Shown in pieces: positions 9,936 through 60,580 of a DNA stretch of 64,000 nt (positions within the stretch are counted from its first letter, which is position 1; the number at the start of each line of letters is the position of its first letter). Under the pieces are notes generated by a model. The model made no database searches and had not been told where the DNA came from. It saw only the letters and a program-made list of their open reading frames with translations. The translations under genes and the position numbers were made by a program. The DNA is from Dysidea avara (Eukaryota; Porifera; Demospongiae; Dictyoceratida; Dysideidae). The stretch is taken from contig NC_089277.1 of assembly GCF_963678975.1 (NCBI RefSeq), forward strand, positions 23,193,672 to 23,257,671, written 5' to 3'.

Positions 9936-10313
9936 ATAGGCGGCGGAAAGGGGGGGCTAGGGGGCTAAAGCCCCCCTTCGGTCTGCTGAGGGGGGGCTTA
10001 GCCCCCCCCCCCCCCCCCTCAGAGAATGATATCACACCGAAATTATCTTTCTTGAAGACCGTGATAAAGATCGAGATACTTTAATAGAGCAGTCACTCTA
10101 ATAAAGTAGTCAGTGTGTAGCGAGCTATGTAAGGATTTTTATGTAGTTTATCAGCTAGAAATGGTAGCTGGTGAGGTGGAAAACTCTTGTCAGTTGGTTA
10201 TAACCTTTTTTTTTTTTTTTTTTTTTTTGGTCTCACCTTACCAAACTATAGAAATAAGTCTGGGTCAGCCCAGCGGAGCCCCCCCTCATATCAACTACTT
10301 CCTCCGCCGCTGT
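9936..10313. mobile_element. hAT-like MITE (378 bp) with G/C-run ends
   Basis: The inverted ends are ATAGGCGGCGGAAAGG and CTTCCTCCGCCGCTGT, each followed inward by long G or C runs. TTCTAGCC (9928-9935) and TTCTAGCT (10314-10321) form an 8-bp target duplication with one difference. The interior holds the dispersed TATTAGAG motif (10068-10111) and a 22-T run followed by GGTCT, an arrangement also seen in the element at 56.9-57.2 kb. Confidence 0.75.
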
Positions 10314-10321
10314 TTCTAGCT

Positions 10322-12291
10322 AATCAGGAAGCCATAGAAGTGTATTTAATATTATCGAAATTACAGCCAATAATCATTTTATGAGCACTACCATACATTA
10401 TCATCAGTGTTCTTTGTTTTCTATCCTTAGATCATGAAATGGACTGATCAAACCCCAATTCTTTGAAGGGTTTCAGACTGTATGGACCATTTCTTTGATT
10501 TCTCCAATACAAAATGAATCCATTTTATATCACCTTGTATCATCTAAAATAGCAAGACATAAGAACATTGTACAGATACAAACTAAACACAAAAAAACAT
10601 AGCTTTAATAGTTGCTAACTGTAAAAGAGGGAAATCCCCTAAACGAAGTCACTAGGAAACCACTAATATTGGTTATACAAATCACATAATATACGAGATA
10701 CAAATTAATGCTGTAAAAACATTACACCACAACCTTTCAAGGACGTAGCCAGAAGGGTTCAAATGGCTCAGACAAACCCCCCTTTCAGAGGCAGAATTTT
10801 TTAAAATTAAAAATCACACCAAATCTTACAGCCCTGGAGCTCTCCAGTAGATACTTGCCAACTGGTGCTCCTCTATACTACTCTTGGGGGTCACATTGCA
10901 TTAATGCTGAAATGTTGCATCACGTGATCAACTGCGCATGTGATACATGGTGGAAATCACATAGTATTGTTGGTTGGTTGGTTGAGACAAATTACAAGGC
11001 AATAGCTGCGATGAACGGTATCTGACTTTTGCTGACTAACTACTGAATGACTGCTTGCTATATAGTATTAGTATTTAATTTAATTCTTTATTAGTACTTC
11101 ATATACATGTATGAGTTTGTACAGAGTACAACAACACACATAGTGGGATGCTATAGGTCTACAGGCTTGTGCCTATAGCCTAAAAGGGAGTAATTATAAA
11201 ATTACACAGTAGACACAATGTATACTATTACAAATATTAGTGTATAGTTTACAGAGAAATGTTTGTTAACACATAGACTGCAGGGACAGAGGTAATACAG
11301 TCAAAAAGGTCAAGTTATGTGTAACGTGATTCTAGGAGCATGACTTAAATCTGTTCCTCATAGTGTTAACACATAGACTGGTTTTGAGTAATAGTAGAGT
11401 GACTTAGCCGAAATATTGTGCACTTGAAAGTATGAAACTTTGCACATAGTACCTACCTACCATGAAGTGTATTTTGAGATATGGAACCATTGCAGATTTG
11501 ACCTTTGGTGTCCTCTACAGTTCATTTTATGCTCAAAAATAGTGACCTTTGTCTATAATAATATTATATCACCCATACAACACTCAATTTGTTCAAACTA
11601 GGTGCTAAATTGAAGATCTTTATCCAATAAACAAGTTGATACTTGTTGCAAGTTCATAGCATATTCCATTTCAAAGTTATGGTAATTTTTACCAGCAGCA
11701 AATTCATATAAAGTCAACTGCCCACGCAATTACACTATTAATCTACATTCTTTTTTGCCATTCAATTATTTATTTTTAATCCAACCATGAGCATTGCAGG
11801 TTACATATACAACCAAAACACGGAGGAGAATACAGGAGTGAGCAGTGAGGCATAGGGGTTATGTACAATACTCCTGTGAGATAAATCAACAAACGTTATA
11901 ATTATTTGTCACCAGATTAAACTCAAATTTGAGGTTGTTTATGGCTATAATTTGCTTCTGTATATAAATATAACAATAATATTTTAATGCACCAAACTCT
12001 AAGGTTATACATGCTACTATCAGTCACATTTGCTGAAAAGCCTTATACGTATCTAACATACCGTATTGATGGCTAATTTTGCGAACTGACGATAGGGAGA
12101 TTATGGTCCTGAACTATACCTACATCTTGTATCACCTTAAAATATATATTTGTCTTAAGAGAGACACACACACCCTGGATTTAGTGGAGTCTGAGGGCAT
12201 AACCAACTAGACAATTTGTGTTTCACAATTTGGTTCTATATAGCAAATGTGTTTCATGTTTGCAAGTATAGCTAAAAGCTAACAACTTCAA
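10322..12291. other. Gene-poor stretch with a LINE 3'-end remnant
   Basis: At about 11070-11215 the minus strand resembles a LINE 3' UTR (AGGCACAAGCCTGTAGACCT, ending in AATAAAGAATTAAA), related to the plus-strand tail at 29.6 kb. A decayed copy of a CAGGGGCGTAGCCAG-type hAT end may lie near 10738. Nothing else is recognisable. Confidence 0.45.
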
Positions 12292-15251
12292 ATCAAGACA
12301 CACGATAGTGTGTCGTGCGGCCCAAGAAGCCGGCGCGTAACACCCGTGAGTATATTGACAGGAAGAAAGATAACGCAATTTTCGCAGCTCCGTAGCTCTG
12401 TGCTGCCTTGATGAAACAATACGATTTGTGCTGTGGAAACTCCCTCCACCTTCAGCACTCCACATTCCAAACTAGAGCAAAATCGCTTCAAGCGTTCCCG
12501 AGATATGCGACTTCAAAAATTGGCTTAGTTTCTTCGTTTTTTTTTCTTCTTATTTTTCTTCCTCTTTTCGCACACTTACAAAAACTGCTATAAAACGCGA
12601 ACGCTATATCCAATTGCCTTAAAATTTGGCACACAGAAGAGGGGTATAAAAGCGAATCTCTGTACCAACTTTGGCTAGGATACGATAAACAGGAAAAGAC
12701 TTATGATCGATTATTCACGAAAAATAACACCAATATGTTGTCACGCCTACAGGGTAAACCGCGTATGGGAAGAAGCTGAAAATCGGTGGGTGAATAGGTT
12801 AACTATTGAACCTCAAACCTTTTGTGGTTTGAAAGAAATCGAGCTAAAAACCAGGAAGATACAACGAAAAAACCAACAGTGTGTAATAATTACGCAATCG
12901 AGATTAGCTAATAAAAAACGACTACTTGCCACGCCTACCAGATAAACCGCTAGGGGGAATGCTTTGAAAATCGCTGTATAGAAGGAATAATAATCTTAGA
13001 AAAGCTCTTCAATGGTGTAGAAGAATCAGACTTAAAGCCACGGAGTTATAACACGAAATCCAACTTGGTGCAGCAAGTGCGAGATCGATATACTCTAATA
13101 GAGCAGTCATCCTAATAGAGCAGTTACCCTGAAGAGAATTCAAGAGATCAGCTAGAAACAAGTAACCTGTATACAGATCAGTTACAAACAAGTCACCCTG
13201 TAGAGAGATCAGCTACAAACAATTCACCCTGTAGAGAGATCAGCTAGAAGAAGTTACCTTGTAGGGAGTTCATGCAACTATGGAAAGAGATAGTTCAACT
13301 AGAAGAAATCACCTTGTAGAGTTCAGCTACAAAGAAACCACCATGTAGAGAGTTCAGCTACAAACAAATGGCCTTGTAGAGAGATCAATAGAAGAAGTTA
13401 CCTTGCAGAGAGTTCAGCTACAAAGAAACCATCATGTAGAGAGTTCAGCTACAAACAAATCTCCCTGTAGAGAGATCAGCTAGAAGAAGTTACCTTGTAG
13501 AGAGTTCAGCTACAAAGAAACCATCATGTAGAGAGTTCAGCTGCAAACAAATCACCTGTAGAGAGTTCAGCTACAAACAAATCTCCCTGTAGAGAGATCA
13601 GCTAGAAGAAGTTTCCTTGTAGAGAGTTCACCTTCAAACAAATCACCCTGTAGAAAGATCAGCTAGAAGAAGTCACCTTGTAGAGAGTTCAGTTACAAAA
13701 AAAACCACCATGTAGAGAGCTCAGCTACAAACTAGTGACCTTGTAGAGACATCAACTAGAAGAAGATACCTTGTAGAGAGTTCAGCTACAAAGAAGCCAT
13801 TCTGTAAAGAGCTCAGCTGCAAACAAATCACCTATACAGAATTCAGCTACAAACAAATCACCCTGTAGAGAGATCAGCTAGAAGAAGTTACCTTGTAGAG
13901 AGTTCAGTTACAAACAAATCACCCTATAGAAAGATCAGCTAGAAGTCACCTTGTAGAAAGTTCAGTTACAAAGAAACCACCATGTAGAGAGTTCAGCTAC
14001 AAACTAGTGACCTTGTAGAGACATCAGCTAGAAAAGTTACCATGTAGAGGGTTCGGCTACAGAGAAACCATTCTGTAAAGAGCTCAACTGCAAACAAATC
14101 ACCCTGTAGAGAGATCAGCTAGAAGGAATTACCTTGTAGATAGTTCAGCTACAAACAAATCACCCTGTAGAAAGATCAGTTAGAAGAAGTTACCTTGTAG
14201 AGAGTTCAGCTACAAAGAAATTATTTTGTAAAGAGCTCAGCTGCAAACAAATCACCTGTACAGAATTCAGCTACAAACAAATCACCCTGTAGAGAGATCA
14301 GCTAGAAGAAGTTACCTTGTAGATAGTTCAGCTACAAACAAATCTCCCTTTAGAGAGATCAGCTAGAAGAAATTACCTTGTAGAGAGTTCAGCTACAAAG
14401 AAACCACCGTGTAGAGAATTCAGCTGCAAAAAAAATCACCCTGTAGAAAATTCAGCTACAAACAAATTGCCCTGTAGAAAGATCGGTTAGAAGAAGTTAC
14501 CTTGTAGATAGTTCAGCTACAAACAAATCTCCCTGTAGAGAGATCAGCTAGAAGAAATTACCTTGTAGAGAGTTCAGCTACAAAGAAACCACCGTGTAGA
14601 GAATTCAGCTGCAAAAAATTACTCTGTAGAAAATTCAGCTACAAACAAATTGCCCTGTAGAAAGATCGGTTAGAAGAAGTTACCTTGTAGAGAGTTCAGC
14701 TACAAAGAAACCATTCTGTAAAGAGCTCAGCTGCAAACAAATCACCTGTGTAGAATTCAGCTACAAACAAATCACCCTGTAAAGAGATCAGCTAGAAGAA
14801 GTTACCTTGTAGAACATTCAGTTACAAACAATTCACCCTGTAGAGAGAGCATCTAGAAGAACTCACCTTGTAGAGTGTTCAGTTACAAAGAACCACCATG
14901 GAGATTCTGTAATCAATATAATAATATTATGTATTATATATATAAATTTGTACATTTACTGATAAAATATTTAAAGTACATCTACTTCATCTTTTCTTCT
15001 TCCTGTAGTAAAGAAAAAAGGTAGGTTAAGCCGGCCATAGGCCAGCTATACAAATACAAAAAGAAATCTAATCCAAAACAGTCAAGCTGTTACACACACA
15101 AATTCAGCTGAATTGTCATTATTAAAATTTTTACCATTAACCTACCATCACAGCCATTTCTTGGCCGCCACCTTGGATTTCACATCTTTTTTCACCATAG
15201 CCTTTTTGAGGGCCACACACTTTTTTATGGCTTGGCTGTTTTGGATTAGAT
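12292..15251 (-). mobile_element. HLE copy 3: composite Helitron-like element, reverse orientation, shortened
   Basis: Read on the minus strand, it runs in the same order as the copies at 23.1 and 40.5 kb: a foldback (15066-15251), a linker containing GGCCTATGGCCGGCTTA, a 31-bp repeat array, the 3' module, and the terminal hairpin GACACACTATCGTGTGTC followed by TTGAT. At 2.96 kb it is shorter than the ~5 kb copies because the foldback has lost its central part and the array has about half as many units. It is flanked by A on the foldback side and T on the hairpin side. There is no transposase or helicase ORF. The 80- and 67-codon ORFs near 12.3-12.5 kb are translations of the 3' module. Confidence 0.8.
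13129..14895 (-). repeat. 31-bp tandem array of HLE copy 3, ~57 units
   Basis: The repeat phrase on the plus strand is TGTAGAGAGTTCAGCTACA followed by AACAAATCACCC. Units vary by a few bases and some are 29-32 bp. Two unit types alternate irregularly (AGTTCAGCTACA and AGATCAGCTAGA). The count is an estimate from array length. Confidence 0.9.
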
Positions 15252-20756: not shown

Positions 20757-21434
20757 ATTTGTTTATTTACATGTGCATCTACCAGAGGCATACACTTAGA
20801 ACTAACTCATCAATTAGATGTGAAGGAGTTTCTGATGGCATTCCAATGATGTACTGGCCGGCAAGATGTTTCTGCAACACTAATATCAGATAATGCTAAA
20901 ACATTTAAAGCTTCTTCCACACAGATTGCCAAGATTCAGTGTTCAACTGAAGTTGCACGTTACCTGATTGACAACCAGATCACCTGGACTTTTATAGTTG
21001 AAAGGGCTCCCTGGTAGGGTGGGTTCTGGGAGAGATTGATTCATAGTGTTAAAGTGGTGTTTGCACAAAGTTATTGGCCATAATATTTTGAGATTTGAAC
21101 AATTAAGAATGTTACTTGTAGAAGTAGAAGGCATAGTTAATGTGTTGACATACGTTCATGATGACACTGAAGGCATCAGTAATACCCTTTGTCCTGCCCA
21201 CCTCCTATATGGAAGAAGGTTATACCATACTCCCAACAGCCAACACTGAGATTTTCAGCACATTTCAGACCCTAACAAAGAAGTAGAAGAGCCATAAACA
21301 ACTGTTGAACCAATTACAACTCAGTTGAGGAAGGACTATCTCCTTAACTTGAGGGAATGTCATGCAGTGAGCAGCAAGAAGGGGTCATGTCCCATGTTTG
21401 AAGTAGGCCAGTTGGTGGTTTTGAAAGATGATAT

Positions 21435-23148: not shown

Positions 23149-23472
23149 ATCTAATCAAAAACAGCCAAGCTATAAAAAAAGGTGCGGCCCCCAAAGAGGC
23201 CATGGTGAAAAAAGATGTGAAATCCAAGGTGGCGGCCAAGAAATTGCTGTGATGGTAGGTTAATGGTTACATTTTAATAACGACAATTCAGGTGAATTTG
23301 GTGCCAAGACCAAGTGGCACAAAATTCACCTGAATTGTCGTTATTAAAATGTAACCATTAACCTACCATCACAGCCATTTCTTGGCCGCCACCTTGGATT
23401 TCACATCTTTTTTCACCATGGCGTTTTTGGGGGCCGCACCTTTTTTTACAGCTTGGCTGTTTTTGATTAGAT
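23149..23472. repeat. 324-bp foldback at the 5' end of HLE copy 1
   Basis: The two arms (about 150 bp each) are near-perfect inverted repeats, from ATCTAATCAAAAACAGCC to GGCTGTTTTTGATTAGAT. The loop is GTGCCAAGACCAAGTGGCAC, itself a small inverted repeat. Other copies: 40471-40794, 59718-60050, and a 186-bp shortened one at 15066-15251. Confidence 0.95.
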
Positions 23473-23689
23473 ATCACTTCTTTTTGTTTATGTATACTGC
23501 AAAGTCGGCCTATGGCTGGCTTTGAGGCTTTTTTAACCTATGTATTTTTTTCTTTACCACAGGAAGAAGAAAAGAACTTAATGAAGATTTGTAATACTTC
23601 AATTATTTTTGATTTTATTAGTAATTATACAAATTATATACATATATTTATTACATGCCCATTATTCCCCACAGGATATTTTTTTGCAG

Positions 23690-26600
23690 CTGATCTCTCT
23701 ACTGGGTGACTTGAAATGTAGCTGAACTATATACAGGATGGTGTCTTTGTAGCTGAACTCTCTACAAGGTGACCTCTTCTAGCTGGTCTCTCTACAGGGT
23801 GATTTGTTTGTAACTAAACTCTCTACATGGTGGTTTCTTTGTAGCTGAACTCTCTACATGATCGTTTCTTTGTAGCTGAACTCTCTATAAGGTGACTTCG
23901 TCTAGCTGAACTCTCTACAGGGTGATTTTTTTGTAGCTGAACTCTCTACAGGGTGATTTGTTTGCAGCTGAACTCTCTACATGATGGTTTCTTTGTAGCT
24001 GAACTCTCTACAAGGTGACTTCGTCCAGCTAATCTCTCTACGGGGTGATTTGTTTCTAGCTGAACTCTCTACAGGTGATTTGTTTGCAGCTAAACTCTCT
24101 ACATGGTGGTTTCTTTGTAGCTGAACTCTCTACAAGGTAACTTCTTCTCTACAGGGTGATTTGTTGTAGTTGAATTCACTACAAGGTGGTTTGTTTGAGG
24201 CTGAACTCTCTACATGGCGGTTTCTTTGTAGCTGAACACTCTACAGAGTGATTTGTTTGCAGCTGAACTCTCTACATGATGGTTTCTTTGTAACTGAACA
24301 CTCTACAAGGTGACTTCTTCTAGCTGATCTTTCTACAGGGTGAATTGTTTGTAGCTGATCATGAACTATCTACAAGGTAACTTCTTCTAGCTGATCTCTC
24401 TACAGGGTGATTTATTTGTAACTGAACTCTCTACATGATGGTTTCTTTGTAGCTGAACTCTCTACAAGGTGACCTCTTCTAGCGGATCTCTCTACAGGGT
24501 GATTTGTTTCTAGCTGAACTCTCTACAGGTGAGTTTTTGCAGCTAAACACTCTGCATGGTGGTTTCTTTGTAGCTGAACTCTGTACATGATGGTTTCTTT
24601 GTAGCTGAACTCTTTACAAGGTGACTTCTTCTAGCTGATCTTTCTACTGGGTGATTTGTTTGCAGCTGAACTCTCTACATGGTGGTTTCTTTGTTGCTGA
24701 ACTCTCTACAAGGTGAATTCTTTTGCCTGATCTCTCTACAGGGCAATTTGTTTGTAACTGAACTCTGTACAAGGTGCGTTTTTGTGGGTGATCTCACTGC
24801 ATCTTGATTTGTTTGTAGCTGAACTCTCTAAAGGGTGATTTGCTTGTAGCTGAACTCCTTGCATTGTGTCTAGTTTCTAGCGGATCTCTCTACAGGGTGA
24901 TTTGTTTGTAGCTGATCTCTCTATAAGGTGATTTGTTTGTAGCTGATCTCTCTGCAGGTTGATTTGTTTTAGCTGAACTCTCTACAGGGTGATTTACTTG
25001 TAGCTGAACTCCTTACATTGTGTCTAGTTTCTAGCGGATCTCTCTACAGGGTGATTTGTTTGTAGCTGATCTCTCTACAAGTTGATTTGTGTGTAGCTGA
25101 TCTTTCTACAGGTTGATTTGTTTGTGGGTGATCTCACTGCAGGTTGATTTGTTTGTAGCTGAACTCACTAAAGGGTGATTTGCTTGTAGCTGAACTGCTT
25201 ACATTGTGTCTAGTTTCTAGCTGATCTCCGTACAGGGTGATTTGTTTGTAGTTAATCTCTCTACAAGTTGATTTGAGTGTAGCTGATCTCTCTGCAGGTT
25301 GGTTAATTTGTAGCCGATCTCTCTACAGGGTAATTTGTTTGTAGCTGAACTGTCTAAGGTGATTTGTTTGTAGCTGATCTCTCTGCAGGTTGATTTGTTT
25401 TAGCTGAACTCTCTACAGGCTGATTTACTTGTAGCTGAACTCCTTACATTGTGTCTAGTTTCTAGCTGATCTCTCTACAGGTTGATTTGTTTGTAGCCGA
25501 TCTCTCTACATGGTAATTTGTTTGTAGCTGAACTCTCTATAAGGTGATTTGTTTGCAGCTGAACTCTCTACATGGTGGTTTCTTTGTTGCTGAACTCTCT
25601 ACAGGGTGTTTTGCTTGTAATTGAACTCTCTGCAGGGTGATTTGTTTCTAGCTTATCTCTCTACAGGTTGATTTGTATGTAACTGGTCTCTCTACAAGCT
25701 GATTTGTTGTAGCTGATCTCTCTGCAGGTTGATTTGTTTGTAGCTTATCTCTGTACAAGTTGATTTGTTTGTTGCTGATCACTCTAAAATTTGATTTGTT
25801 TGTAGCTGAACTCTATGCAAAGTGTTTTGTTTGTAGCTGACCTCTCTTCAGGATGATTTGTTTCTCTCTACAGGGTGATTTTTTTATAGCTGACCTCTCT
25901 TCAGGGTGATTTGTTTCTAGCTGATTGCTCTACAGGTTGATTTGTTTGTAGATGAACTCTCTACAGGGTAATTTGCTTGTAGCTGAACTCCTTACATTGT
26001 GTCTAGTTTCTAGCTGATCTCTCTACAGGGTGATTTGTTTGTAGCTGATCTCTATATAAGTTGATTTGTGTGTAGCTGATCTCTCTGCAGGGTGATTTGT
26101 TTGTAGCCGATCTCTCTACAAGGTAATTTGTTTGTAGCTGAACTATCTATAAGGTGATTTGTTTGCAGCTGATCTCTCTGCAGATTGATTTGTTTTAGCT
26201 GAACTCTCTACAGGGTGATTTGTTTCTAGCTTATCTCTCTACAGGTTGATTTGTGTGTAACTGATCTCTCTACAAGCTGATTTGTTTGTAGCTGATCTTT
26301 CTGCAGGTTGATTTGTTTCTAGATGATCTCTCTACAGGTTGATTTGTTTGTTGCTGATCGCTCTAAAGATTGATTTGTTTGTAGCTGACCTCTCTTCAGG
26401 GTGATTTGTTTCTAGCTGATATCTCTACAGGGTGATTTTGTGTAGTTGACCTCTCTTCAGGGTGATTTGTTTGTAGCTGATCTCTCTATAAGTTGATTTG
26501 TGTGAAACTGATCTCTCTGCAGGTTGATTTGTTTTAGCTGAACTCTCTACAGGGTGATTTGCTTGTAGCTGAACTCCTTACATTGTGTCTAGTTTCTAGT

Positions 26601-27190
26601 TGATCTCTCTACAGGGTAATTTGTTTGTAGCTGAACTCTCTATAAGGTGATTTGTTTGTAGCTGATCTCTCTGCAGGTTGATTTGTTTTAGCTGAACTCT
26701 CTACATTGCTTGTAGCTGAACTCCTTACATTGTATCTAGTTTCTAGTTTATGTCTCTACAGGGTGATTTTTTTGTAGCTGAACTCTCTACAGGGTGATTT
26801 GTTTCTAGCGTATCTCTCTACCGGTAGATTTGTGTTGATTTGTTCATTGCTGATCGCTGATTTGTTGTAGCTGAACACTCTGCAAAGTGTTTTATTTGTA
26901 GCTGATCTCTCTACAGGGTAATTTGTTTGTAGCTGAACTCTCTCCACAGTGACTTGTGTGTAGCTGAATTCTGTGTAGCTGAATTCTCTAGAGAGTGACT
27001 TAATTGTAGCTGAATTCTCTACAGGGTGCATGACTTGTTTATAGCTGAACTTTCTTCAGTGTGACTTGTAATGTTCTGAATCTCTATAGTGATATATTTG
27101 CTTAACTCTCCACATGGTAACTGTCTTCTTGCTGAACTGTCTATAAGAATAACTGTTTGCAGCTGAACTCCCTACAAAATAACTTGTGAT
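23690..27190 (+). repeat. 31-bp tandem array of HLE copy 1, ~110 units
   Basis: The unit core is TGTAGCTGATCTCTCTACA followed by GGGTGATTTGTT. TGTAG and CTACA within each unit are inverted repeats. Variants cluster: an early zone with GGTTTCTTTGTAGC, a middle zone with the block CTCCTTACATTGTGTCTAG recurring every few hundred bases (higher-order repeat), and a diverged right edge. Confidence 0.95.
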
Positions 27191-27631
27191 GTAATAAAAT
27201 TCTATAATGGAGTAAATAAATTAGCCGAATGCTCTATTAGGGTGACTGTTCTATTAGAGTATCTCGATCTCGCATTTGCTACACGGAGTTGGCTTTAGAA
27301 TCATAACTCAGTGGTTTGTAATCCGATTCTTCTGTACTACTGCAAGGACTTTCTATGAAGATTATTCCAGCTATGCACCGATTTTCAGCTCATTGCTCTA
27401 AGCGGTTTGCCTAGTAGTCGTGAAAACTAATACTTTTTTTATTCGTAAAAATCGATTGCGTAATTGTGACACAGGTTGGGGTTTGTGTCATATCTCCATG
27501 GTCTTTATCTCGATTCCTTTTAAACCACCAAAAGGCACTCCTACGATGATTACTTCATCTACATAGCAATGTTCAACTCATTCCATGAAGCGGTTTACCC
27601 TGTAGGTGTGACAACAAATCGATCTTGTTTT

Positions 27632-27741
27632 ATTATTGCTTTATGGTGTAAACACACCAAAGGTCTGTTGGTAACATGTACCAACAGCCGCGAAAGTACA
27701 TTACATTACATTACTTATTTACCTACTTACTTACTTATTTT
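27632..27741. repeat. Insertion in HLE copy 1 ending in (TTAC)n, TSD TTTTA
   Basis: Copy 2 reads GTTTTACGCGAATAAT at 45416 without interruption. Copy 1 has about 110 extra bases between two TTTTA repeats, ending in TTACTTACTTA. It looks like a short retroposed sequence. It contains a small hairpin, TGTTGGTAACATGTACCAACA. Confidence 0.75.
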
Positions 27742-28254
27742 ACGCGAATAATCGGTCATAACTCCTGAACCATTCATCGGAGTTGTACCAAATTTGATGC
27801 TAGGATTCGCCGTTGGACTCCCTTTCTGTGTGCCAAATTTCATGGCGATCGGAGTACGTATTTGCTTGTTATAGCAATTTTTGCAAGTGTGCGAAAAGAC
27901 GAAGAAGAAAAAAAACGAAACTTTGGCAGCTCGTATCTCGGAAATGGCTGTAGCGATTTCCTTCAAATTTGGAATGTAGACTCCCCTGGCTGGCGGGCAA
28001 CTGTGTAGCAAGTTTGGTTCCAATCGGATAAGTGATCACTGAGATACACAGGTGTGAAAATGACGTTTTCGTTCTTCCTGTCAATACACTCACGGGTGTG
28101 GCGCGCCGGCTTCTTGGGCCGCACGACACACTACCGTGTGTCTTGATATATACGTGTCGTAGTGCCATTTTATATCACAAAGCTAGCTACTAGCATGTGA
28201 TGTTGGCGATGGAATTGATTATGAGCTGACATAGATATTGATTCAATAATATTA

Positions 28255-29759: not shown

Positions 29760-30690
29760 AATTGACTGGCTTTTTGCATGGGCTGCTAGTGAATGCAAAG
29801 GCAATTGACTGCTATTGCATTTCTGTGGAGATCTGCGAAATTTTTACCCTCGAAAATATTAAACCTTCTACACGTGGTAGTATGCATGCAGAATTTTCGT
29901 CGCATGCAAGGTTCGTCACTTGATAAAATGAATGGAAACTGCAGAACATTTTGTGTAGCTAACTATATCGCTTCAGTCAACATCTTGGTTGACATCTAGA
30001 AAAAAGGACATCATGTGAAGCTTGACTATCTGATAACTACACGGAGCACACCACTTAGTAGGATATTGTTAACGAACTGCTAGCTATAACGGCTAATTTC
30101 TGCTCGTCCATATGATAAAGAAAACATGCAGATGCATGACTGTGTCAAAATAACCTTTCTTTTTAATCCGGCAGTAGCTAACTTTCTACGATCAACACCG
30201 GATAACCAGCTTTATTTTGTTGATCACTGCAGTTGACCATCACTGGAGACTGGGTCGAGTTCTATAGAGAACTAACACAAGGAACATTGCAATGTAACTG
30301 GGTACGTATACTCGTGCTATAGCTATTACCTGACCACATCTGCATGTATGTTGTATCATTCCCTGTAGATTCAGTCTCCAGAGCAAGTGCTTAAGCATGC
30401 ATGGAGCTTGCGACTCTCGGAAGTTCGTAAATGAAGACTGATGCTATTAATGTAGGGATATACAACTCCAAGGATCCGAAAGGATATGATTAAACACTTG
30501 CACCAAATAGCGAGTTTGTCGACTGGGTGCCGACAAACTTCAATACATATAGCTACACGCAAGTCTATAGTCAGTCCAGCACTAAATAACATCAGTGCTG
30601 GGGGAGTGGAGGAAGGGCTGTCCATCTAGCCCGGGCTGACAAATGTGTGGAATTACTATAGCTACTAATAAGAAGTGTGGAATTACTGTA
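29760..30690. other. No recognisable feature
   Basis: Only short chance ORFs on both strands. I recognise no family. Confidence 0.4.
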
Positions 30691-30691
30691 G

Positions 30692-30800
30692 AATGTTCAA
30701 CTGAGATACGTAAGTGTTATATTAACACAAAAATATAGTTTGTCTTTGCTGCATGTGCATGAAAATTAAACAGAAAATATGCTTGCAATATTACAATAAT
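30692..30800. repeat. Dispersed repeat, copy of 23037-23148
   Basis: It shares GTAAGTGTTATATTAAC, ATATAGTTTGTC and GCATGAAAATTAA in the same order and spacing. Confidence 0.75.
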
Positions 30801-30865
30801 AATAACGCTGTTGATATTTAGCCGGACACGGGACGCTCGCTTTAACCCTAGCTCACCTCGAACTC

Positions 30866-38280: not shown

Positions 38281-40470
38281 ATGTTATACAGTATAACAAC
38301 CATGTTCTATGCTGTCTTTGCTGGAATACTAGCAGTGGTAGGAGCAACTGATCATTATTATGTTCAGCCCGATAACATGGCTACATGCTTGAAGTCACGA
38401 TGTCCTAGATTACATGTCATCATTGATTATCCTTATAAGTATATTAAGTCTAATACAACCTTGCATTTCAGTAAAGGAACATATCTCCATAAATCATCAG
38501 ATTTTGTAGTTATGAATGTTAAAAACTTTTCACTCAGTGGTACACCAAATGCTCACGATGCTGCATCACCTTTGAGTGTTATTAAATGCACTCCAGATCA
38601 TCCTATATATTTTTATAATGTCAGTAATCTGCTGATAAAATATTTGAAGTTTGAAGAATATGGCAGCACACCACCCAGGTTATCTCATATATACATTGCA
38701 AATAAAAGATTGTGGACGATATTACTGGGCTAGTATAGCTTTTCACTATTGTACTAATGTAGAAGTTGTGAATGTATCCATTACTCATCCAGTCGGCTAT
38801 GGTATAAGAGGTGTAAATGTATTTGGAAACAACTCAGTTGAAAATACTACAATTATAATGAGCAGAAAACAATTATTTAATAATCTTGTTTCCACATGTA
38901 GCTATGGAATACACTGGAGTTATGGTGGAAGTGGTGAAACTAACAATGGCACCTTCAACGTCTCTGTCATTAATATAATGTTGAAACAGACTGGTTTCTG
39001 CATGGGCAGTTCACAAGATTTGTTTGTATTACAGTTACATCAATTTAGTGTATACATTGTAAAAAAGAACTCAGATTTTACTAACTTAAGAGCCAGCTTA
39101 ATAAAACTTGATGTGGCTTCATTATCACAAAGCAGTATTGAATTCTATAAGTGCAACTTCAGCTTAAATACTGTATCATATGTTATTTACTTCCAGTATC
39201 AGTTGCCTCCAGTTGATGTTAATAATATACCCACTCCAAAAATAGATGTAAAATTTGTAAATACAACTTTTTCATCAAATACTTACCATTCAGCTTACTT
39301 ACATAATAGCTCCATCTTACGGTTAGTAATATCATCACACATCCAAGTTAACCTGAATGTTGATTTTGTATATGTTTTGTTTTATAAAAATGAGGTTACC
39401 TTATTGAGCATATACTCGTCCACTTCATTATTGGGCCATCAACCAGCTGTATCGATCTCCACTACAGGCTATTTTGTAGCAAAGCAAAATCAAAATTTTG
39501 CATGTGACAACAACTTGATATCAATAATGGAAGGACAAGTCCATTTTAATGGAATTACTGAATTTACAAATAACCAAGTAACTGAAATTCTTCATTCATC
39601 ATCATCGCTAATCATTTTCTCTAACATAACATTGTTTGCTACAAATATATGCAAACATTTAGTATCTCTCAATTGCAGACAATGTTACATTATTTTTTAA
39701 AGAAATTCTCATTTAATTTACGTTCTTTCATAACACAGTACAAAAGGAATTAATAAAATTGCCCATCCACCACAATAATCCTAAACCTTATTGTTTATTT
39801 CAGTTTTATGATCCGATCAATAATGAATACAAAGATTTCAGAATTGATCTACAGTTCTTAAGTGTAACAAGTTTAAAAGCCAATATCCCTGAAGTAAATA
39901 AATTAACATAATATTGTAAATGGGCCCCTGGTGTAGCATTTCAAAATATTGCTCCTTAAGTTGTAAACAATAACATCATTTCTTTGAACCTAAAAATGTG
40001 ACATCTTATACTTTAAATGCTCACACCACAATTTGTTACTGCCCACATTCATCACATTACAATTGTAGTATTGAACAATTAGGCCCTATATACCCTGGAC
40101 AAAACTTAACTGCCTTCCTTATAACAATGAAGAATTTGGTATTTTGTATGCAGAGACATACAATGATAACCTGCCAAAATCTGCTTGCAAACTTAGGAAT
40201 TATGGGAGCATGAAGCACATTTTTCATCAAGGGCAAAGTGAAAGAGTGTCTTTTGCTATTGCTTCAGAACAACGTACAGGTTGTGAACTATTTCTCACAG
40301 CTCAACCAAACTTGTATACTGCTTATGATGTCTTTTATGTCCACCTTCTTCCATGTCCATTAGGATTTACATTACAACATGGAATTTGTGACTGTGATCC
40401 TGATCTTGAAGAATATATTTATGAGTGTAAAATAAGTAGCCAAACTGTGAGATGATTTTCTGGTGTATAT
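38281..40470 (+). pseudogene. 5' half of a broken beta-helix/multi-pass membrane protein gene
   Basis: The first frame (38281-38733) starts with a signal peptide (FYAVFAGILAVVGA) followed by DHYYVQP and KSNTTLHFSKGTY. That is the N-terminal pattern of a large family with repetitive, Asn-rich beta-helix-like ectodomains, annotated in sponges and cnidarians, often as uncharacterised or 'outer membrane protein pmp-like'. A frameshift near 38.69 kb leads into the second frame (38651-39700), which continues the N-glycosylation-rich ectodomain. The coding signal is lost between 39.70 and 40.0 kb. It resumes in two frames to CPLGFTLQHGICDCDP (40350-40400), the family's juxtamembrane Cys motif. Just after SSQTVR a stop occurs, and HLE copy 2 begins at 40471. 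Molecular role unknown; presumably a cell-surface receptor or adhesion protein. Confidence 0.8.
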
Positions 40471-40794
40471 ATCTAATCAAAAACAGCCAAGCTGTAAAAA
40501 AAGGTGCGGCCCCCAAAAAGGCCATGGTGAAAAAAGATGTGAAATCCAAGGTGGCGGCCAAGAAATGGCTGTGATGGTAGGTTAATGGTTATATTTTAAT
40601 AACGACGATTCAGGTGAATTTGGTGCCAAGACCAAGTGGCACAAGATTCACCTGAATTGTCATTATTAAAATGTAACCATTAACCTACCATCACAGCCAT
40701 TTCTTGGCCGCCACCTTGGATTTCACATCTTTTTTCACCATGGCGTTTTTGGGGGCCGCACCTTTTTTTACAACTTGGCTGTGTTTGATTAGAT
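40471..40794. repeat. 324-bp foldback at the 5' end of HLE copy 2
   Basis: Nearly identical to 23149-23472, with the same length and the same loop. Confidence 0.95.
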
Positions 40795-41019
40795 ATCACT
40801 TCTTTTTGTTTATGTATACTGCAAAGTCGGCCTATGGCTGGCTTTGAGGCTTTTTTAACCCATGTGTTTTTTCTTTACCACAGGAAGAAGAAAAGAACTA
40901 AAAGAAGATTTTTAATGCTTCAATTATTTTTGATTTTATAAAATTATTAGTAATTATACAAATTATATACATATATTTATTACATGCCCATTATTCCCCA
41001 CAGGATATTTTTCTGCAGT

Positions 41020-44000
41020 TGATCTCTCCACTGGGTGACTTGAAATGTAGCTGAACTATATACAGGATGGTTTCTTTGTAGCTGAACTCTCTGCAAAGTG
41101 ACCTCTTCTAGCTGGTCTCTCTACAGGGTGATTTGTTTCTAGCTGAACTCTCTACAGGTGATTTGTTTGCAGCTAAACTCTCTACATGGTGGTTTCTTTG
41201 TAGTTGAACTATCTACATGATGGTTTCTTTGTAGCTGAACTCTCTATAAGGTGACTTCGTCCAGCTGATCTCTCTACGGGGTGATTTGTTTCTAGCTGAA
41301 CTCTCTACAGGTGATTTGTTTGCAGCTAAACTCTCTACATGGTGGTTTCTTTGTAGCTGAACTCCCTACATGGTAACTTCTTCTCTACAGGGTGATTTGT
41401 TGTAGTTGAATTCTCTGCAAGGTGGTTTGTTTGAGGCTGAACTCTCTACATGGCGGTTTGTTTATAGCTGAACTCTCTACAGAGTGATTTGTTTGCAGCT
41501 GAACTCTCTACATGATGGTTTCTTTGTAACTGAACACTCTACAAGGTGACTTCTTCTAGCTGATCTTTCTACAGGGTGAATTGTTTGTGGCTGAACTATC
41601 TACAAGGTAACTTCTTCTAGCTGATCTCTCTACAGGGTGATTTGTTTGTAACTGAACTCTCTGCATGATGGTTTCTTTGTAGCTGAACTCTCTACAAGGT
41701 GACTTCTTCTAGCTGATCCCTCTACAGGGGAATTTATTTGTAGCTGAACTCTCTACAAGTGATTTATTTGCAGCTGAACTCTTTATGTGGTGGTTTCTTT
41801 GTAGCTGAACTCTCTACAAGGTGACCTCTTCTAGCTGATCTCTCTACAGGGTGATTTGTTTCTAGCTGAACTCTCTACAGGTGATTTTTTGCAGCTAATC
41901 ACGCTACATGATGGTTTCTTTGTAGCTGAACTCTGTACATTATGGTTTCTTTGTAGCTAAACTCTTTACAAGGTGACTTCTTCTAGCTGAACTCTCTACG
42001 GGGTAATTTCTTTGTAGTTGAACTCTCTATATGATGGTTTCTTTGTAACTGAACTCTCTACAAGGTAACTTCTTCTAGCTGATCTTTCTACTGGGTGATT
42101 TGTTTGCAGCTGAACTCTCTACATGGTGGTTTCTTTGTTGCTGAACTCTCTACAAGGTGAATTCTTCTACCTGATCTCTCTACAGGGTAATTTGTTTGTA
42201 ACTGAACTCTGTACAAGTGCATTTTTGTTGGTGATCTCACTGCAGGTTGATTTGTTTGTAGCTGAACTCACTAAAGGGTGATTTTGCTTGTAGCTGAACT
42301 CCTTGCATTGTGTCTAGATTCTAGCTGATCTCTCTACAGGGTGATTTGTTTGTAGCTGATCTCTCTACAAGTTGATTTGTGTGTAGCTGATCTCTCTGCA
42401 GGTTGTTTAATTTGTAGCCGATCTCTCTACAAGGTAATTTGTTTGTAGCTGAATTGTCTATAAGGTGATTTATTTGTAGCTGATCTCTCTGCAGGTTGAT
42501 TTATTTTAGCTAAACTCTCTACAGGGTGATTTACTTGTAGCTGAACTCCTTACATTGTGTCTAGTTTCTAGCTGATCTCTCTACAGGGTGATTTGTTTGT
42601 AGCTGATCTCTCTACAAGTTGATTTGTGTGTAGCTGATCTTTCTACAGGTTGATTTGTTTGTAGCCAATCTCTCTACAGTGAAATTTGTTTGTAGCTGAA
42701 CTCTGTACAAGGTGCTTTTTTGTAGGTGATCTCACTGCAGGTTGATTTGTTTGTAGCTGAACTCACTAAAGGGTGATTTGCTTGTAGCTGAACTCCTTAC
42801 ATTGTGTCTAGTTTCTAGCTGATCTCTCTACAGGGTGATTTGTTTGTAGCTAATCTCTCTACAAGTTGATTTGAGTGTAGCTGATCTCTCTGCAGGTTGA
42901 TTAATTTGTAGCCGATCTCTCTACAAGGTAATTTGTTTGTAGCTGAACTGTCTATAAGGTGATTTGTTTGTAGCTGATCTCTCTGCAGGTTGATTTGTTT
43001 TAGCTGAACTCTCTATAGGCTGATTTACTTGTAGCTGAACTCCTTACATTGTTTCTAGTTTCTAGCTGATCTCTCTACAGGGTAATTTGTTTGTAGCTGA
43101 ACTCTCTATAAGGTGATTTGTTTGCAGCTGAACTCTCTACATGGTGGTTTCTTTGTTGCTGAACTCTCTACAGGGTGTTTTGCTTGTAGCGGAACTCTCT
43201 ACAGGGTGATTTGTTTCTAGCTTATCTCTCTACAGGTTGATTTGTGTGTAACTGATCTCTCTACAAGCTGATTTGTTAGTAGCTGATCTCTCTGCAGGTT
43301 GATTTGTTTCTAGCTGATCTCTGTACAAGTTGATTTGTTTGTTGCTGATCGCTCTAAAAGTTGATTTGTTTGTAGCTGAACTCTCTGCAAAGTGTTTTGT
43401 TTGTAGCTGACCTCTCTTCAGGGTGATTTGTTTCTAGCTGATCTCTCTACAGGGTGATTTTTTTTGTAGCTGACCTCTCTTCAGGGTGATTTGTTTCTAG
43501 CTGATCTCTCTACAGGGTGATTTTTTGTAGCTGACATGTCTTCAGGGTGATTTGTTTCTAGCTGATTGCTCTACAGGTTGATTTGTTTGTAGATGAACCC
43601 TCTACAGGGTAATTTGCTTGTAGCTGAACTCCTTACTTTGTGTCTAGTTTGTAGCTGATCTCTCTACAGGGTGATTTGTTTGTAGCTGATCTCTATACAA
43701 GTTAATTTGTGTGTAGCTGATCTCTCTGCAGGGTGATTTGTTTGTAGCCGATCTCTCTACAAGGTAATTTGTTTGTAGCTGAACTGTCTATAAGGTGATT
43801 TGTATGTAGCTGATCTCTCTGCAGATTGATTTGTTTTAGCTGAACTCTCTACAGGGTGATTTGTTTCTAGTTTATCTTCTACAGGTTGATTTGTGTGTAA
43901 CTGATCTCTCTACAAGCTGATTTGTTTGTAGCCGATCTCTCTACAGGGTAATTTGTTTGTAGCTGAACTCTCTATTAGGTGGTTTGTTTGTAGCTGATCT

Positions 44001-44990
44001 CTCTGCAGGTTGATTTGTTTTAGCTGAACTCTCTACAGGGTGATTGCTTGTAGCTGAACTCCTTACATTGTGTCTAGTTTCTAGCTGATGTCTCTACAGG
44101 GTGATTTTTTGTAGCTGAACTCTCTACAGGGTGATTTGTTTCTAGCTTATCTCTCTACAGGTAGATTTGTGTTGATGTGTTCATTGCTGATCGCTCTAAA
44201 GGTAGGGACCCGCCGATTATGCTCATAATTTTACCTATTATGCTGCTCAAAATTCACCTATTATGCTTAAATTAATGCTCAATATTTACCTATTATGCTC
44301 GATTATGCTCAATGTTCATGCCTTAGTTCATATGCTACGCTACTAGTTTAACACTGTATAGAAAGAAAAAAATGAGTGGCTGGAACACAAATAGTGAATT
44401 CTTGCTGCATGTAAGAGAAAAGATCGATATACTCTAATAGAACAGTCAGTTGTATGATTGTACTATTAGAGTTACTGACTGCTCTATTAGAGTATATCGA
44501 TCTTATTTTGCAATTGTCATTTTCCAGCAAGAATTTATACTATCGTACAAATATTTAACCTATTATGCTGGCATTATGCTCAATGCTTTTAGGTACCTAT
44601 TATGCTCAAAATTATGCCAGCATAATCGGCGGGTCCCTATCTAAAGGTTGATTTGTTGTAGCTGAACACTCTGCAAAGTGTTTTGTTTGTAGCTGATCAC
44701 TCTAAAGGGTAATTTGTTTGTAGCTGAACTCTCTCCACAGTGACTTGTGTGTAGCTGAATTCTGTGAAGCTGAATTCTCTAGAGAGTGATTTAATTGTAG
44801 CTGAATTCTCTACAGGGTGCATGACTTGTTTATAGCTGAACTTTCTTCAGTGTGACTTGTAATGTTCTGAATCTCTATAGTGATATATTTGCTTAACTCT
44901 CCACATGGTAACTGTCTTCTTGCTGAACCGTTTATAAGAATAACTGTTTGCAGCTGAACTCCCTACAAAATAACTTGTGATGTAATAAAA
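41020..44990 (+). repeat. 31-bp tandem array of HLE copy 2, ~114 units
   Basis: Same unit and same zone order as copy 1, including the recurrent CTCCTTACATTGTGTCTAG block. The MITE at 44203-44639 interrupts it. The unit count is estimated from length after removing the MITE. Confidence 0.95.
44203..44639. mobile_element. hAT-type MITE (437 bp) inside HLE copy 2, perfect 8-bp TSD
   Basis: The ends are TAGGGACCCGCCGATTATGC and GCATAATCGGCGGGTCCCTA. TCTAAAGG flanks both sides (44195-44202, 44640-44647). The interior has repeated ACCTATTATGCT words and, at 44421-44503, two inverted copies of the dispersed TATTAGAGTA motif. Copy 1 lacks it, so it postdates the split of the two HLE copies. Confidence 0.92.
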
Positions 44991-45829
44991 TTCTATAATG
45001 GAGTAAATAATTAGCCGAATGCTCTATTAGGGTGACTGTTCTATTAGAGTATCTCGATCTCGCATTTGCTACACGGAGTTGGGTTTCGAATCATAACTCA
45101 GTGGTTTGTAATTCGATTCTTCTGTACTACTGCAAGGACTTTCTATGAAGATTATTTCAGCTATACACCGATTTTCAGCTCATTGCTCATAGCAGTTTGC
45201 CTAGTAGGCGTGAAAACTAATACTTTTTTATTCATAAAAATCGATCGCGTAATTGTGACACTGGTTGGGTTTTGTGTCATATCTCCGTGGTCTTTATCTC
45301 GATTCCTTTCAAACCACCAAAAGGCACTCCTACGGTGGTTACTCCATCTACATAGCAATTTTCAACTCATTCCATGAAGCGGTTTACCCTGTAGGCGTGA
45401 CAACAAATCGATCTTGTTTTACGCGAATAATCGGTCATAACTCCTGAACCATTCATCGGATTTGTACCACATTTGATGCTATGATTCGCCGTTGGACTCC
45501 CTTTCTGTGTGCCAAATTTCAAGGCGTTCGGAGTACGCGTTTGCTTGTTATAGCAATTTTTGCAAGTGTGCGAAAAGACGAAGAAGAAGAAAAAAAACGA
45601 AGCTTTGGCAGCTCGTATCTCGGAAATGGCTGGAGCGATTTCCTTCACATTTGGAATGTAGACTCCCCTGGCTAGCGGGCAACTGTGTAGCAAATTTGGT
45701 TCCAATCAGATAAGTGATCACCGAGATACAAAGGTGTGAAAATGACGTTTTCATTCTTCCTGTCAATATACTCACGGGTGTGGCACGCCGGCTTCTTGGG
45801 CCGCACGACGCACTACCGTGTGTCTTGAT

Positions 45830-47160
45830 ATTGGGTACTGCATCAAATAATTCATCAAGATATTCTGTTTCACCAAACTGTCCTATTGACTATTGTCTAC
45901 ATAAAACAGCCACTCTTAATTTACATCATCCTGATGCTCAATGTCAACCTCACAGAACCAGTTTGCTGTGCTCACAGTGTACAGTAGGTCCACCCAGTGT
46001 AGAAAATGCTCAAATATACACTTGTTATTTATTTCATTTATTTTCTTTGCTGGTTTGCTTTTAATGGTCATTCTTTTCTATCTTAATTTGACAGTGACAT
46101 CAGGAACTATTAATGGTCTGATATTATACACTAACATTGTTTGGATTAATAAATCTTATTTCCATTTACATGATAGATTAATGGCATTTATACACGCCTA
46201 TATTTCCACTACTAATCTAGGATCTCCTTTTGAAATGTGCTTTTACAATGGGATGAACATGTATGCTAAAACATGGATACAATTTGCTTTCCCATTTTAT
46301 TTGATATTGATTGCTACCACATTATAATCTTAGGTAGTCAATACTCCACCAAACTTTATCGGTTAACATACAACAGAGCACTACTACTAGCAACCTTGTT
46401 TATGCTTACTTACACTAGTATACTACAAGCCATATCTAGTACACCTTTGTACACTACCATCATCACTATACCAAGTCACAGTTCCAAAAATCTTTGGTTG
46501 CTTGATCCAATTATTCCACTATTTGGATGGAAGTTTTTTCTTTTAATCAGTGTATGCTTGTTGTTGTTTCTGTTCTTGCTAATGTTCAATGTCATAATGC
46601 TGTTTACTAAACCACTGATGAGGTTTAAATGTATCCATCGCTTTAAACCATTGATAGATACTTTTCAGGGTCGATTCAGAATTCGTTATTATCGTTGGAT
46701 TTGAGTACAACTATTGATCAGAAATGTGATGATGCTGCTTTCTGTTTTAAGTCAAACTGTGAACATCATAGTAAGCTGCATTATGATTATAGTTGTTGTT
46801 ATTGTTCAAGGTTACATTCATCCTTACAAGAACTCTTTAGTAAATGTCCAAGATTTGGTTCTCCTTTTTATTTATATCATGCTGTGTTTTTTAGTCTTAC
46901 TCAACAGAAGTGAACTACTAAATATAATTATAATAAACATTTTGGTTGGTTTATCATTTATTCAGTGTCTGGTTTACCATACCATTGCCTTTGTGAGTCC
47001 TTGCAGTAAAGCGCTAAACACAGCCACAGGTTTAATTAAGAAATACTTCAACTACAGGAGACCAGAATTAGAAGAACATCAACAAAGTACTGGCATGGAA
47101 ATTCCAGAAGTGGCCTTTAACTTTGCCAATTTTCAAGAGCCATTATTAGGTGAAGATTAA
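45830..47160 (+). pseudogene. 3' half of the broken membrane protein gene (multi-pass region)
   Basis: It continues the gene cut at 40470. The first frame gives SPNCPIDYCLHKTATLNLHH and CQPHRTSLLCSQC, the Cys-rich end of the ectodomain. A frameshift at about 45.98 kb leads to QCRKCSNIHLLFISFIFFAG (first transmembrane helix), then LTVTSGTINGLILYTNIVWI and MNMYAKTWIQFAFPFYL. A second shift near 46.32 kb leads to LYRLTYNRALLLATLFMLTY. A third near 46.7 kb leads to the last helices with NILVGLSFIQ and the tail ending in LLGED at 47160. About six hydrophobic segments are visible. These are family landmarks recognised from memory. With three frameshifts plus the insertion it cannot encode one protein. 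Confidence 0.82.
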
Positions 47161-47280: not shown

Positions 47281-47660
47281 GCATATACATACAAGTATAC
47301 ATAACTGTGCATACACATGCAAGTTTACTGTTAAAGGTTCTATCTTTTTATTGGAATTGGTAGAAAAATACCATCCAGTAGTGACTCCGGCAATCTTGAA
47401 ATTTGTGCTTAATATGTAGCAATAAATTGCAATGAGATGTCAGAAAATTACAACAGCTAACAGCTAGGTAGGCCATTCAATGATGTCAGAATCGTTGCTT
47501 GATTTATTCTTATAATTTCATAAGTAAGCCAGCCGATTGGGTTACTCTTTACTATAGGGATAAAATAATGATATTTTAATTGCTTGTTTAGCTACATCTT
47601 CATTTTAACAATTTTATTTTGTAATTTACAATCATGTTGTTTGATCATATTTAATCACAT
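47281..47660. other. No recognisable feature
   Basis: AT-rich spacer between the pseudogene's polyadenylation signals and a decayed HLE array. Confidence 0.4.
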
Positions 47661-47669
47661 TTATCACTA

Positions 47670-48390
47670 CCCAGGTTGAATATAGTTTGCAGCTGAATAC
47701 TCTACAGGGAAAGGTGTGCATAACTAAAAATTTCTACAGGAAGACTTGTAATGTAGCTAAACTCTTAGACGACATGGTGAATGGTTTGAACTTCTCCAGA
47801 GTGACTCATAATCTAATCAAATTCTCTGCAGAAAGAATTGCAACCTAGCTGAATTTTCTACAGGACATGGTTTTTTATGTAGCTGAACTCTCTATTGGGT
47901 GCCTTGTAACATAACTGCACAAATTCTTTACAGGGTGACTTGTTTCCAGCTGACCTCTCTGAAGGGTGACTTGTTTGTATAGCTGCATGATCTCTCTATA
48001 CAGAGGGCAAATTGAAATGTGCTCTACAGGGTTTTTCTCTGATCTCTCTACATGGTTACTTGTAATCTCTCTGGTGACTTGATTCTAGCTGATCTCTCTA
48101 CAGGTTGACTTGATTCTAGCTCAAGTATACTTGTTTCTAGCTGATCTATCTACAGGTCGACTTGCTTCTAGCTGATATCTGTACAGGATGATTTGATCTC
48201 CCTGTACAGGGTAGCTAAATTCTCCACACGGTGACTCATTTCTAGCACTCTCTACAGGGTGACCTGTTTCTAGCTGATCTATTTACAGCTTGATTTGTTT
48301 CTAGCTGATCTCTCTACAGGGTTATTTGTTTCTACTGTAGCTGATCTTTCTACAGGGTGACTTGTTTCTAGCTGAACGCTCTAGATGCAG
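47670..48390 (+). repeat. Decayed HLE-type 31-bp array
   Basis: Phrases such as TAGCTGATCTCTCTACAGG and GTGACTTGTTTCTAGCTGA recur irregularly. There is no foldback or terminal hairpin, so this is an old remnant. Confidence 0.75.
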
Positions 48391-51419: not shown

Positions 51420-51867
51420 ATACTTATGTATGTGTATACGTATGTATGTGTGTGTGTGTGTATGTATGTACTGTATGTATGTATGTATGTATGTATGTAT
51501 GTATGTATGTATGTATGTATGTATGTATGTATGTATGTATGTATGTATGTATTTATGTATGTATGTATGTATGTTTGTATGTATGTATGTATGTATGTAT
51601 GTATGTATGTATGTATGCATGCATGTATGTATGTATGTATGTATGTATGTATGTATGAATGTATGTATGTATGTATGCATGTATGTATGTATGTATGCAT
51701 GCATGTATTTATGTATGTATGTATGTATGTATGTATGTATGTATGTATGTATGTATGTATGTATGTATGTATGTATGTATGTATGTATGTATGTATGTAT
51801 GTATGTATGTATGTATGTATGTATGTATGTATGTCTGTCTGTCTGTCTGTCTGTATGTATGTATGTA
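51420..51867. repeat. (TATG)n microsatellite, ~450 bp
   Basis: A nearly pure tetranucleotide array with a few TTTG, CATG and GAATG interruptions, ending in (TCTG)5 and TATG. It is open in several frames on both strands. The ORFs of up to 192 codons here are artefacts of the repeat. Confidence 0.98.
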
Positions 51868-52129
51868 TGTCTATTTTTGCTTTGTGTTAAAATTTATGCC
51901 TTGCCAGGGCTCCAGTTTAATATAATTATTATATTAAACCCTGTTAAAATAACAATTGAAAAAAGAAACTTGGTAGCTAGAGTCTATTAGTAAGGGAGAG
52001 ACATCTGTTAAGACAATATACAACATAATTGCAGGGGTTTAGACTCAGGGATAGTACACTATTATTAATAAATTACAATGTAAAAATAATATTTATGGCA
52101 TGTAGAAGAGTTCAGTTTAGGCAAACCAA

Positions 52130-59717: not shown

Positions 59718-60580
59718 ATCTAATCAAAAACTGCCAAGCTGTAAGAAAAGGGTGCGGCCTCCAAAAAAACCACGGTGAAAAAAGATGTGAAATCCAAGGT
59801 GGCAGCCAAGTAATGGTTGTGATGGTAGGTTAATGGCAAAAATTTAATAATGACAATTCAGGCGAATTTACTTTGCCTCTTCAAAGATTTGGTCCCAAAT
59901 TCACCTGAATTGTTGTTATTAAAAAATTTTGCCATTAACCTACCATCACAGCCATTTCTTGGTCGCCACCTTGGATCTCACATCTTTTTTCACCCTGGCT
60001 TCTTTGGAGGCCGCACTCTTTTTTTACAGCTTGGCTGTTTTTGATTAGATATCACTTCTTTTTATAATTTTGTACCAAAAGCCAGCCTATTGCCAGCTTT
60101 GGGTATTTCTTTTAACTTGTATTTTTCTTGCATATAGGAATAATGATTATTAAGAAGAAAATTATTATTATAATTGTTTAGCTATACATGCACATTTAGC
60201 AATATCTTAGTAATTAGTACAATTGTGTTGATTAATTCTGTACAGGATGAATTGCTAGCAGCTGAAATTGGAAATGTGTATAAAACTGAAATTTGGAAAT
60301 ATGTAGGTAGCTGAAATTTCTATAGGAGGAATCATAATGTAACTGTGTAACTGTACTGTTAGACTACATAGTGAGCAGTGTGTAGTTGAACTCACCACAG
60401 AGTGACTAGTAACCTAACTATACTGTACAGAAAGAATTGCAAGATACTGTAGCTGAACTTTCTACAAGCTAGTTTTCTTATAGATGAACCCTCTACTCGG
60501 TGACATGTTTCTAGCTGAACTCTCTACAGGGTGACTTGATTCTATCTGATTACTCTACAAGGTGATTTGTTTCTAACTGA
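59718..60580 (+). mobile_element. HLE copy 4, decayed 5' part
   Basis: A complete foldback (59718-60050) starting TCTAATC after an A, then the linker (AGCCTATTGCCAGCTTTGG), then about 340 bases of strongly diverged array (TAGCTGAACTCTCTACAGGG at 60515). There is no 3' module or terminal hairpin, so it is 3'-truncated. Confidence 0.8.

Follow-up and report, generated by a model that had tools for sequence, protein, structure and literature searches.

A 64,000-nucleotide (nt) stretch of the Dysidea avara genome (here the window; G000:C6:23193672-23257671, in an assembly of 550.8 Mb and 108 contigs) carries several copies of a 5-kb repeat, together with part of a Pao-type retroelement, an F-box gene and one gene, of sponge-like appearance, from a gene family clustered in this region. 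Copies A (23149..28147, + strand) and B (40471..45829, +) are full length. Copy C (12292..15251, - strand) is reversed, belongs to a different subfamily and lacks most of its inner foldback arm, and copy D (59718..60580, +) is truncated beyond the foldback and about four array units. All follow one order, i.e. foldback, inner segment, array of 31-bp units, 3' module and terminal hairpin, with D ending in the array. A decayed remnant, E (about 47546..48390, +), has inner segment and array but no recognised ends. An earlier note on this DNA had proposed four copies with a shared order of parts and no open reading frame to explain mobility. Alignment of A to D bears this out; the outer coordinates proved exact, flanking AT included, and no open reading frame of at least 120 amino acids with an ATG, GTG or TTG start lies inside A, B or C. 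The repeat is a single mobile unit that inserts at AT, a reading supported by how often its ends occur and how they are linked, by clean junctions and by an empty site. Its ends are sharp, its parts keep one order, and the genome has roughly ten thousand copies of it.

The element proper of copy A extends from T23150 to A28146, with the target A at 23149 and the target T at 28147; all its features are given on the + strand. It starts with a 324-bp foldback (23149..23472) made of two head-to-head 5' ends, each ending in AT followed by CTAATC. Arm and reverse complement are identical at 308 of 326 aligned columns in A, 302 of 326 in B and 288 of 347 in D, and about 29 bp of the second arm remain in C. 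On its inner side the second arm of A ends in GATTAG followed by AT. Near the tip lie a small 5' hairpin (23161..23173), with the consensus ACAGC-CAA-GCTGT and with GCTAT as the last part in copy A, and the 5' subterminal inverted repeat GTGCGGCCC (23182..23190). A conserved inner 5' segment (23473..23663) precedes the 31-bp minisatellite (23679..26972), which has about 108 units in copy A and continues in degenerate units to about 27185. Then follow a conserved 3' module of about 900 bp (27186..28115), where again no frame of 120 amino acids has a usual start, the 3' inverted repeat GGGCCGCAC (28116..28124), which is the complement of the 5' GTGCGGCCC, and the terminal hairpin GACACAC-TACC-GTGTGTC (28125..28142) with the TTGA end. 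In copy B the foldback occupies 40471-40794, the array starts at 41046 and the module reaches 45829. With boundaries as cut by us, the arrays span 3522 bp in A, 3764 bp in B and 1762 bp in C.

The 5' end reads AT followed by CTAATC(A/C)AAAAC(A/T)GCC in all four aligned window copies. The three copies that reach the 3' end (D is truncated) read GGGCCGCAC-GAC(A/G)CACTA(C/T)CGTGTGTC-TTGA followed by T. The two ends are thus unequal yet alike in build, with a small hairpin near the tip and the complementary GTGCGGCCC and GGGCCGCAC further in. The 3' stem-loop has a 7-bp stem and stands 4 nt from the element end CTTGA; as single-stranded DNA, the last 131 bases of copy A fold better than 199 of 200 shuffled versions (z -2.75).

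Does this order hold genome-wide? The last 32 bases of the 3' end, with up to 2 mismatches, occur at 10,182 genomic places (5,045 + 5,137) and the 25-base 5' consensus, at the same tolerance, at 21,400 (10,693 + 10,707); both patterns read backward, as controls, occur nowhere. The ratio of 5' arms to 3' ends, 2.1, matches two arms, or one foldback, per element. Linkage was sampled on contig C1, where 100 exact 3' ends were listed and 88 of 100 listed arms fell in the same 9.8 Mb, forming 60 foldback units. On the element side, 35 of the 100 listed 3' ends have a foldback no more than 9 kb away, at distances of 2.1-6.9 kb; on the outer side the number is 7, where chance predicts 5.4. The linked fractions among the listed matches are thus 35/100 for 3' ends and 35/60 for foldback units. 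Judged from the full counts and assuming even spread, about 32% of foldbacks and about 55% of 3' ends appear in the exact lists, so the linkage of foldback and 3' end looks near complete.

Module sequence is present at 30 of 30 sampled 3' loci, with only 46-49 bp of it at L009, and an array lies on the element side within 1.5 kb of 28 of them, L009 and L020 being without one. All 30 sampled arms, from 18 distinct foldbacks, have an array on the body side; four arms (two foldbacks) have one on the other side too, as expected where copies sit close. Could the order nevertheless reflect chance or segmental duplication, with foldback, array and module usually separate? Remnant E, with its array and no ends, and the two 3' ends that have no array within 1.5 kb are in keeping with such an origin, but it is contradicted by the linkage of the ends, the two arms per 3' end, the clean flanks and the empty sites, and is highly improbable. 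The single mobile unit suggested in the earlier note, which had pointed to a genome-wide search with the two ends, agrees with what that search found: the parts are linked rather than usually separate, and the junctions and the empty site of copy B, described below, point the same way.

By extrapolation from the mean linked length (4.7 kb, some chance pairs included) times 10,182, the element totals about 48 Mb, or 9% of the genome. If up to 3 mismatches are allowed, the 30-mer of the array is found at 226,588 genomic places (control 0). The three arrays of the window yield 78 such matches from about 292 units; scaled at this rate, there would be about 26 Mb of array genome-wide if other arrays are alike. 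With the first 652 bases of copy A as query, the best 40 of 4,716 candidates are A itself and 39 others at 97-98% identity. The exact 31-base 3' end has no match in genome_contigs and none in viral_contigs, a result of little weight, since these collections cover other kinds of organism or may omit this genome.

Comparison of the last 532 bases of 33 copies gives three groups of 8, 10 and 12 members and the outliers L009, L020 and L031; mean identity is 92-94% within groups and 72-81% between them, with single pairs up to 99%. The element has at least three subfamilies. The 30 genomic copies in this comparison were picked for exact ends, and so say nothing on terminal conservation. Activity appears fairly recent, on top of an older history. 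The array is likely passenger DNA, because its length varies between copies.

The junctions are clean. Beyond CTTGAT the flank is unrelated, by eye, in 30 of 30 sampled 3' ends. Among 13 outer arms, defined as arms without the conserved inner flank, T precedes CTAATC in all 13 and A precedes that T in 12. Among ten elements with both flanks (the copies A, B and C plus seven on C1), inspected by eye, a longer target duplication does not recur; two other listed end pairs, in which the inner arm had been used, were set aside. Copy B, with flanks 40271-40470 and 45830-46029, interrupts a member of the gene family, which is clustered on C6 at about 22.4-24.8 Mb. Its joined flanks, queried without the AT, give 33 matches, mostly in this family on C6 close to the window. 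Of these, 28 span nearly the whole query and one more crosses the junction; the rest are B's own two halves and two that cover the left part only. All seven of the empty-site paralogues fetched have the length of the B flanks with AT counted once. A paralogue of the left flank of copy A, at 30669-30805, departs from A's right flank directly past the junction. The target is therefore AT, as empty sites hold AT once and the element ends at AT on both sides. Either the cut falls between A and T without duplication or AT is duplicated, and these two options are indistinguishable.

How, then, does the element move? It is a high-copy non-autonomous transposon, probably mobilised in trans by a Helitron-like HUH Rep/helicase. 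A rolling-circle route in trans is favoured by the unequal ends, the hairpins near both tips, the 9-bp inverted repeat, the lack of an ordinary target duplication, the insertion at AT, and the presence of a gene-less, high-copy family beside many Rep genes. An HUH Rep would nick at the 5' TC end, one strand would be displaced and copied, the 3' hairpin would act as terminator, and the displaced strand would be joined into a new site between A and T. The array might grow or shrink by replication slippage or unequal exchange. The 324-bp foldback would represent an inverted duplication of the 5' end, probably arisen once, before the subfamilies split. Its source may have been a strand switch at the 5' end or a second 5' end that inserted head to head; the latter agrees with the AT next to the inner arm. 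In consequence, the element would start with two 5' ends facing opposite ways. A more speculative proposal, which we consider doubtful, is that the element is an undescribed Helitron-like branch whose 5' end is an inverted pair of initiation sites. Such a bidirectional origin, copying inward into the element or outward into flanking DNA until another 3' hairpin, might have helped element and array to reach about 9% of the genome.

Several points weigh against mobilisation by a Helitron-like Rep in trans. The rolling-circle steps are inferred from structure. The inverted repeat shared by the two ends is 9 bp long, compared with 11-15 bp in HINEs (the non-autonomous Helentrons discussed below), and just 21 of 30 sampled 5' arms, which were selected by their exact first 25 bases, have GTGCGGCCC in exact form; its first 8 bases are exact in 23 of these arms and fit 27 if C/T changes are tolerated at three positions. 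The AT at both ends could be the 2-bp duplication of a cut-and-paste element, from which it is indistinguishable. A foldback-type DNA transposon of that sort, with a DDE transposase acting on the ends, would suit the large foldback and the fact that both ends can be read from ATC. Yet the ends are not mutual inverted repeats beyond the 9 bp and a few terminal bases, the foldback is wholly at the 5' end and hairpins lie close to both tips; we regard a DDE element as unlikely. The joined flanks of copy C (40 scored of 105 candidates) gave no empty site: 38 of the 40 matches, C's own right flank included, cover the right side only, starting at query position 74-87, and two, one of them C's own, cover query 1-85 only. 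The last of these points is that an element bearing both a Rep and the ends of the repeat was not found within a few kb beside representatives of five of eight groups of Rep genes (G1, G2, G6, G7 and G8, one to a few genes each; G3-G5 were left out), and that the one apparent partner, in G7, was rejected, as described below. As to copy C itself, its 3' flank (12200-12291) belongs to a dispersed repeat whose copies mostly start at the junction or no more than about 10 nt from it, and another element seems to abut copy C.

The ends sought beside the Rep genes are the element's own termini, TCTAATCAAAAACAGCC...GGGCCGCAC-hairpin-TTGA. Helitron-type Rep domains (PF14214) are numerous, with 150 scored matches of 230 candidates in this genome and none in 14 control genomes, and many sit in open frames of more than 1000 amino acids. 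The matches were sorted by score into the working groups G1-G8, which are ad hoc labels. Two elements, one from G1 and one from G2, show canonical ends by eye, with a hairpin and then CTAG followed by T, and share no end with the repeat. Might the repeat be a derivative of this canonical Helitron1 with an altered 3' end? The 5' TC and the target between A and T are as in canonical Helitrons, and many G1 and G2 genes have long open frames. However, in the two elements inspected the hairpin stands some nucleotides before CTAG and no end sequence is in common, whereas the repeat ends in CTTGA, 4 nt from its hairpin, and has an extra 5' hairpin. We regard a Helitron1 derivative as unlikely.

The flanks of one G6 gene (L073, L083) and one G8 gene (L071, L081, L082) are without the element's ends. 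Downstream of the G8 gene, a 29-bp match of 86% to the 5' arm (L082:629-657, E 8e-5) points away from the gene and has no inverted repeat, and is set aside as chance or decay. Long GT-rich tandem repeats, unlike the 31-bp unit, lie just upstream of the same gene (L071:213-2979). The apparent G7 partner is the gene at G000:C1:25861987, a 2078-amino-acid frame with Helitron_like_N, PIF1 and OTU domains, which has a foldback and a 128-unit array just upstream. This is a nested insertion, since its close relatives L079 and L080 have the same 5' start without foldback or array. In G000:C1:25851000-25871000 (L074/L072/L075) the Rep/helicase/OTU gene sits inside the module of a copy whose array has about 128 units. 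Among other genes fetched as G7, L077 has a reversed array upstream and L078 has none. On the small contigs C14 and C15, Rep matches of low score seem to be common among the matches listed.

A second repeat is found inside the element's module and well beyond it. A 20-mer with a palindromic core (TGACTGCTCTATTAGAGTAT) occurs, with up to 2 mismatches, at 94,083 genomic places (reversed control 1) and is far commoner than the element's 3' ends. In the window, with up to 3 mismatches, it is present at 3687, 3708, 9176, 16123, 27243, 36125, 44476 and 45033 on the + strand and at 10076, 13090, 44429, 50835 and 57010 on the - strand. Several of the listed places are pairs 27 bp apart, and a variant form lies upstream of two canonical Helitrons. 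The window also has a TATG microsatellite of 111 copies (51425-51870).

What might such an element mean for the genome? This gene-less, rolling-circle-like element takes a minisatellite genome-wide, with about 226,000 detectable units, and is a direct route to dispersed tandem repeats. Its duplicated 5' end offers a natural test of what the initiation end of a Helitron requires, and its AT target, found together with hairpins like those of Helitron2, makes the accepted Helitron classes less distinct.

Several known systems come close to this design, among them the gene-less rolling-circle transposons of flies and oysters. In Tetris of Drosophila, the foldback arms form the two termini, whereas here both arms are at one end. 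Tetris resembles the element in joining foldback and internal tandem repeats in one non-autonomous unit (PMC7492417). The bivalve elements Cg_HINE and Pearl carry satellite-like arrays, with up to six repeats of about 160 bp in Pearl; as here, the array lies between a left and a right module, and the right module has an inverted repeat and a palindrome, but the present element differs in its 31-bp units (about 108 in copy A), its AT rather than TT target and its foldback (PMC7492417). HINEs, or DINE-1 elements, are non-autonomous Helentrons with subterminal inverted repeats, central repeats, a 3' stem-loop and TT targets (PMC4067079). Like them, the element is non-coding and of high copy number, has inverted repeats near both ends, a 3' stem-loop and central tandem repeats (as in some HINEs), and makes no ordinary target duplication; unlike them, it has an AT target, seen in 12 of 13 outer 5' flanks and in the empty site, the shorter inverted repeat and the 324-bp 5' foldback (PMC4067079). 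Of an autonomous partner with Rep, helicase and endonuclease and the same ends, as in Helentrons, there was no sign beside the Rep genes sampled in the five groups.

The Helitron2-type elements FoHeli1/2 of Fusarium oxysporum have hairpins at both ends, a TC start and an AT-containing target; the Helitron2 target is given as TTTT and then T or C (PMC5148889). The element shares with FoHeli1/2 the 5' TC start, the hairpins at both ends, a 3' inverted repeat set back from the end and an AT-containing target; FoHeli1/2 differ in ending in ATTTT, in their other end sequences and in being described with transposase genes, and the part of that account used here mentions neither array nor foldback (PMC5148889). 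As to the asymmetric terminal inverted repeat of Helitron2, the shared 9 bp of the element are subterminal at both ends, and the TTTT target is absent. With canonical Helitron1 the element has in common the 5' TC, insertion between A and T (where a 2-bp AT duplication is possible) and a 3' hairpin, and it differs in lacking a 3' CTRR, in the position of the hairpin (4 nt from the end, against about 11 nt) and in the extra 5' hairpin (PMC4067079, PMC5148889).

In the titles and abstract openings searched, neither this element nor a sponge element built like it is described. The earlier note had likened the repeat to Helitron- or Helentron-related elements with internal satellites and thought it might be an undescribed family. 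The likeness in design holds; the class label is not established, given the lack of a partner in the groups sampled, the AT rather than TT target and the non-canonical 3' end. That the family is undescribed is plausible, the element being a variant of a kind already known. One tested feature fails for each class, namely the TT target of Helentrons and HINEs, the TTTT target of Helitron2 and the 3' CTRR of Helitron1, and the element is therefore filed in none of them, but as a variant of the Helitron-like kind. What sets it apart among these systems is that its 5' end is duplicated in inverted form over 324 bp.

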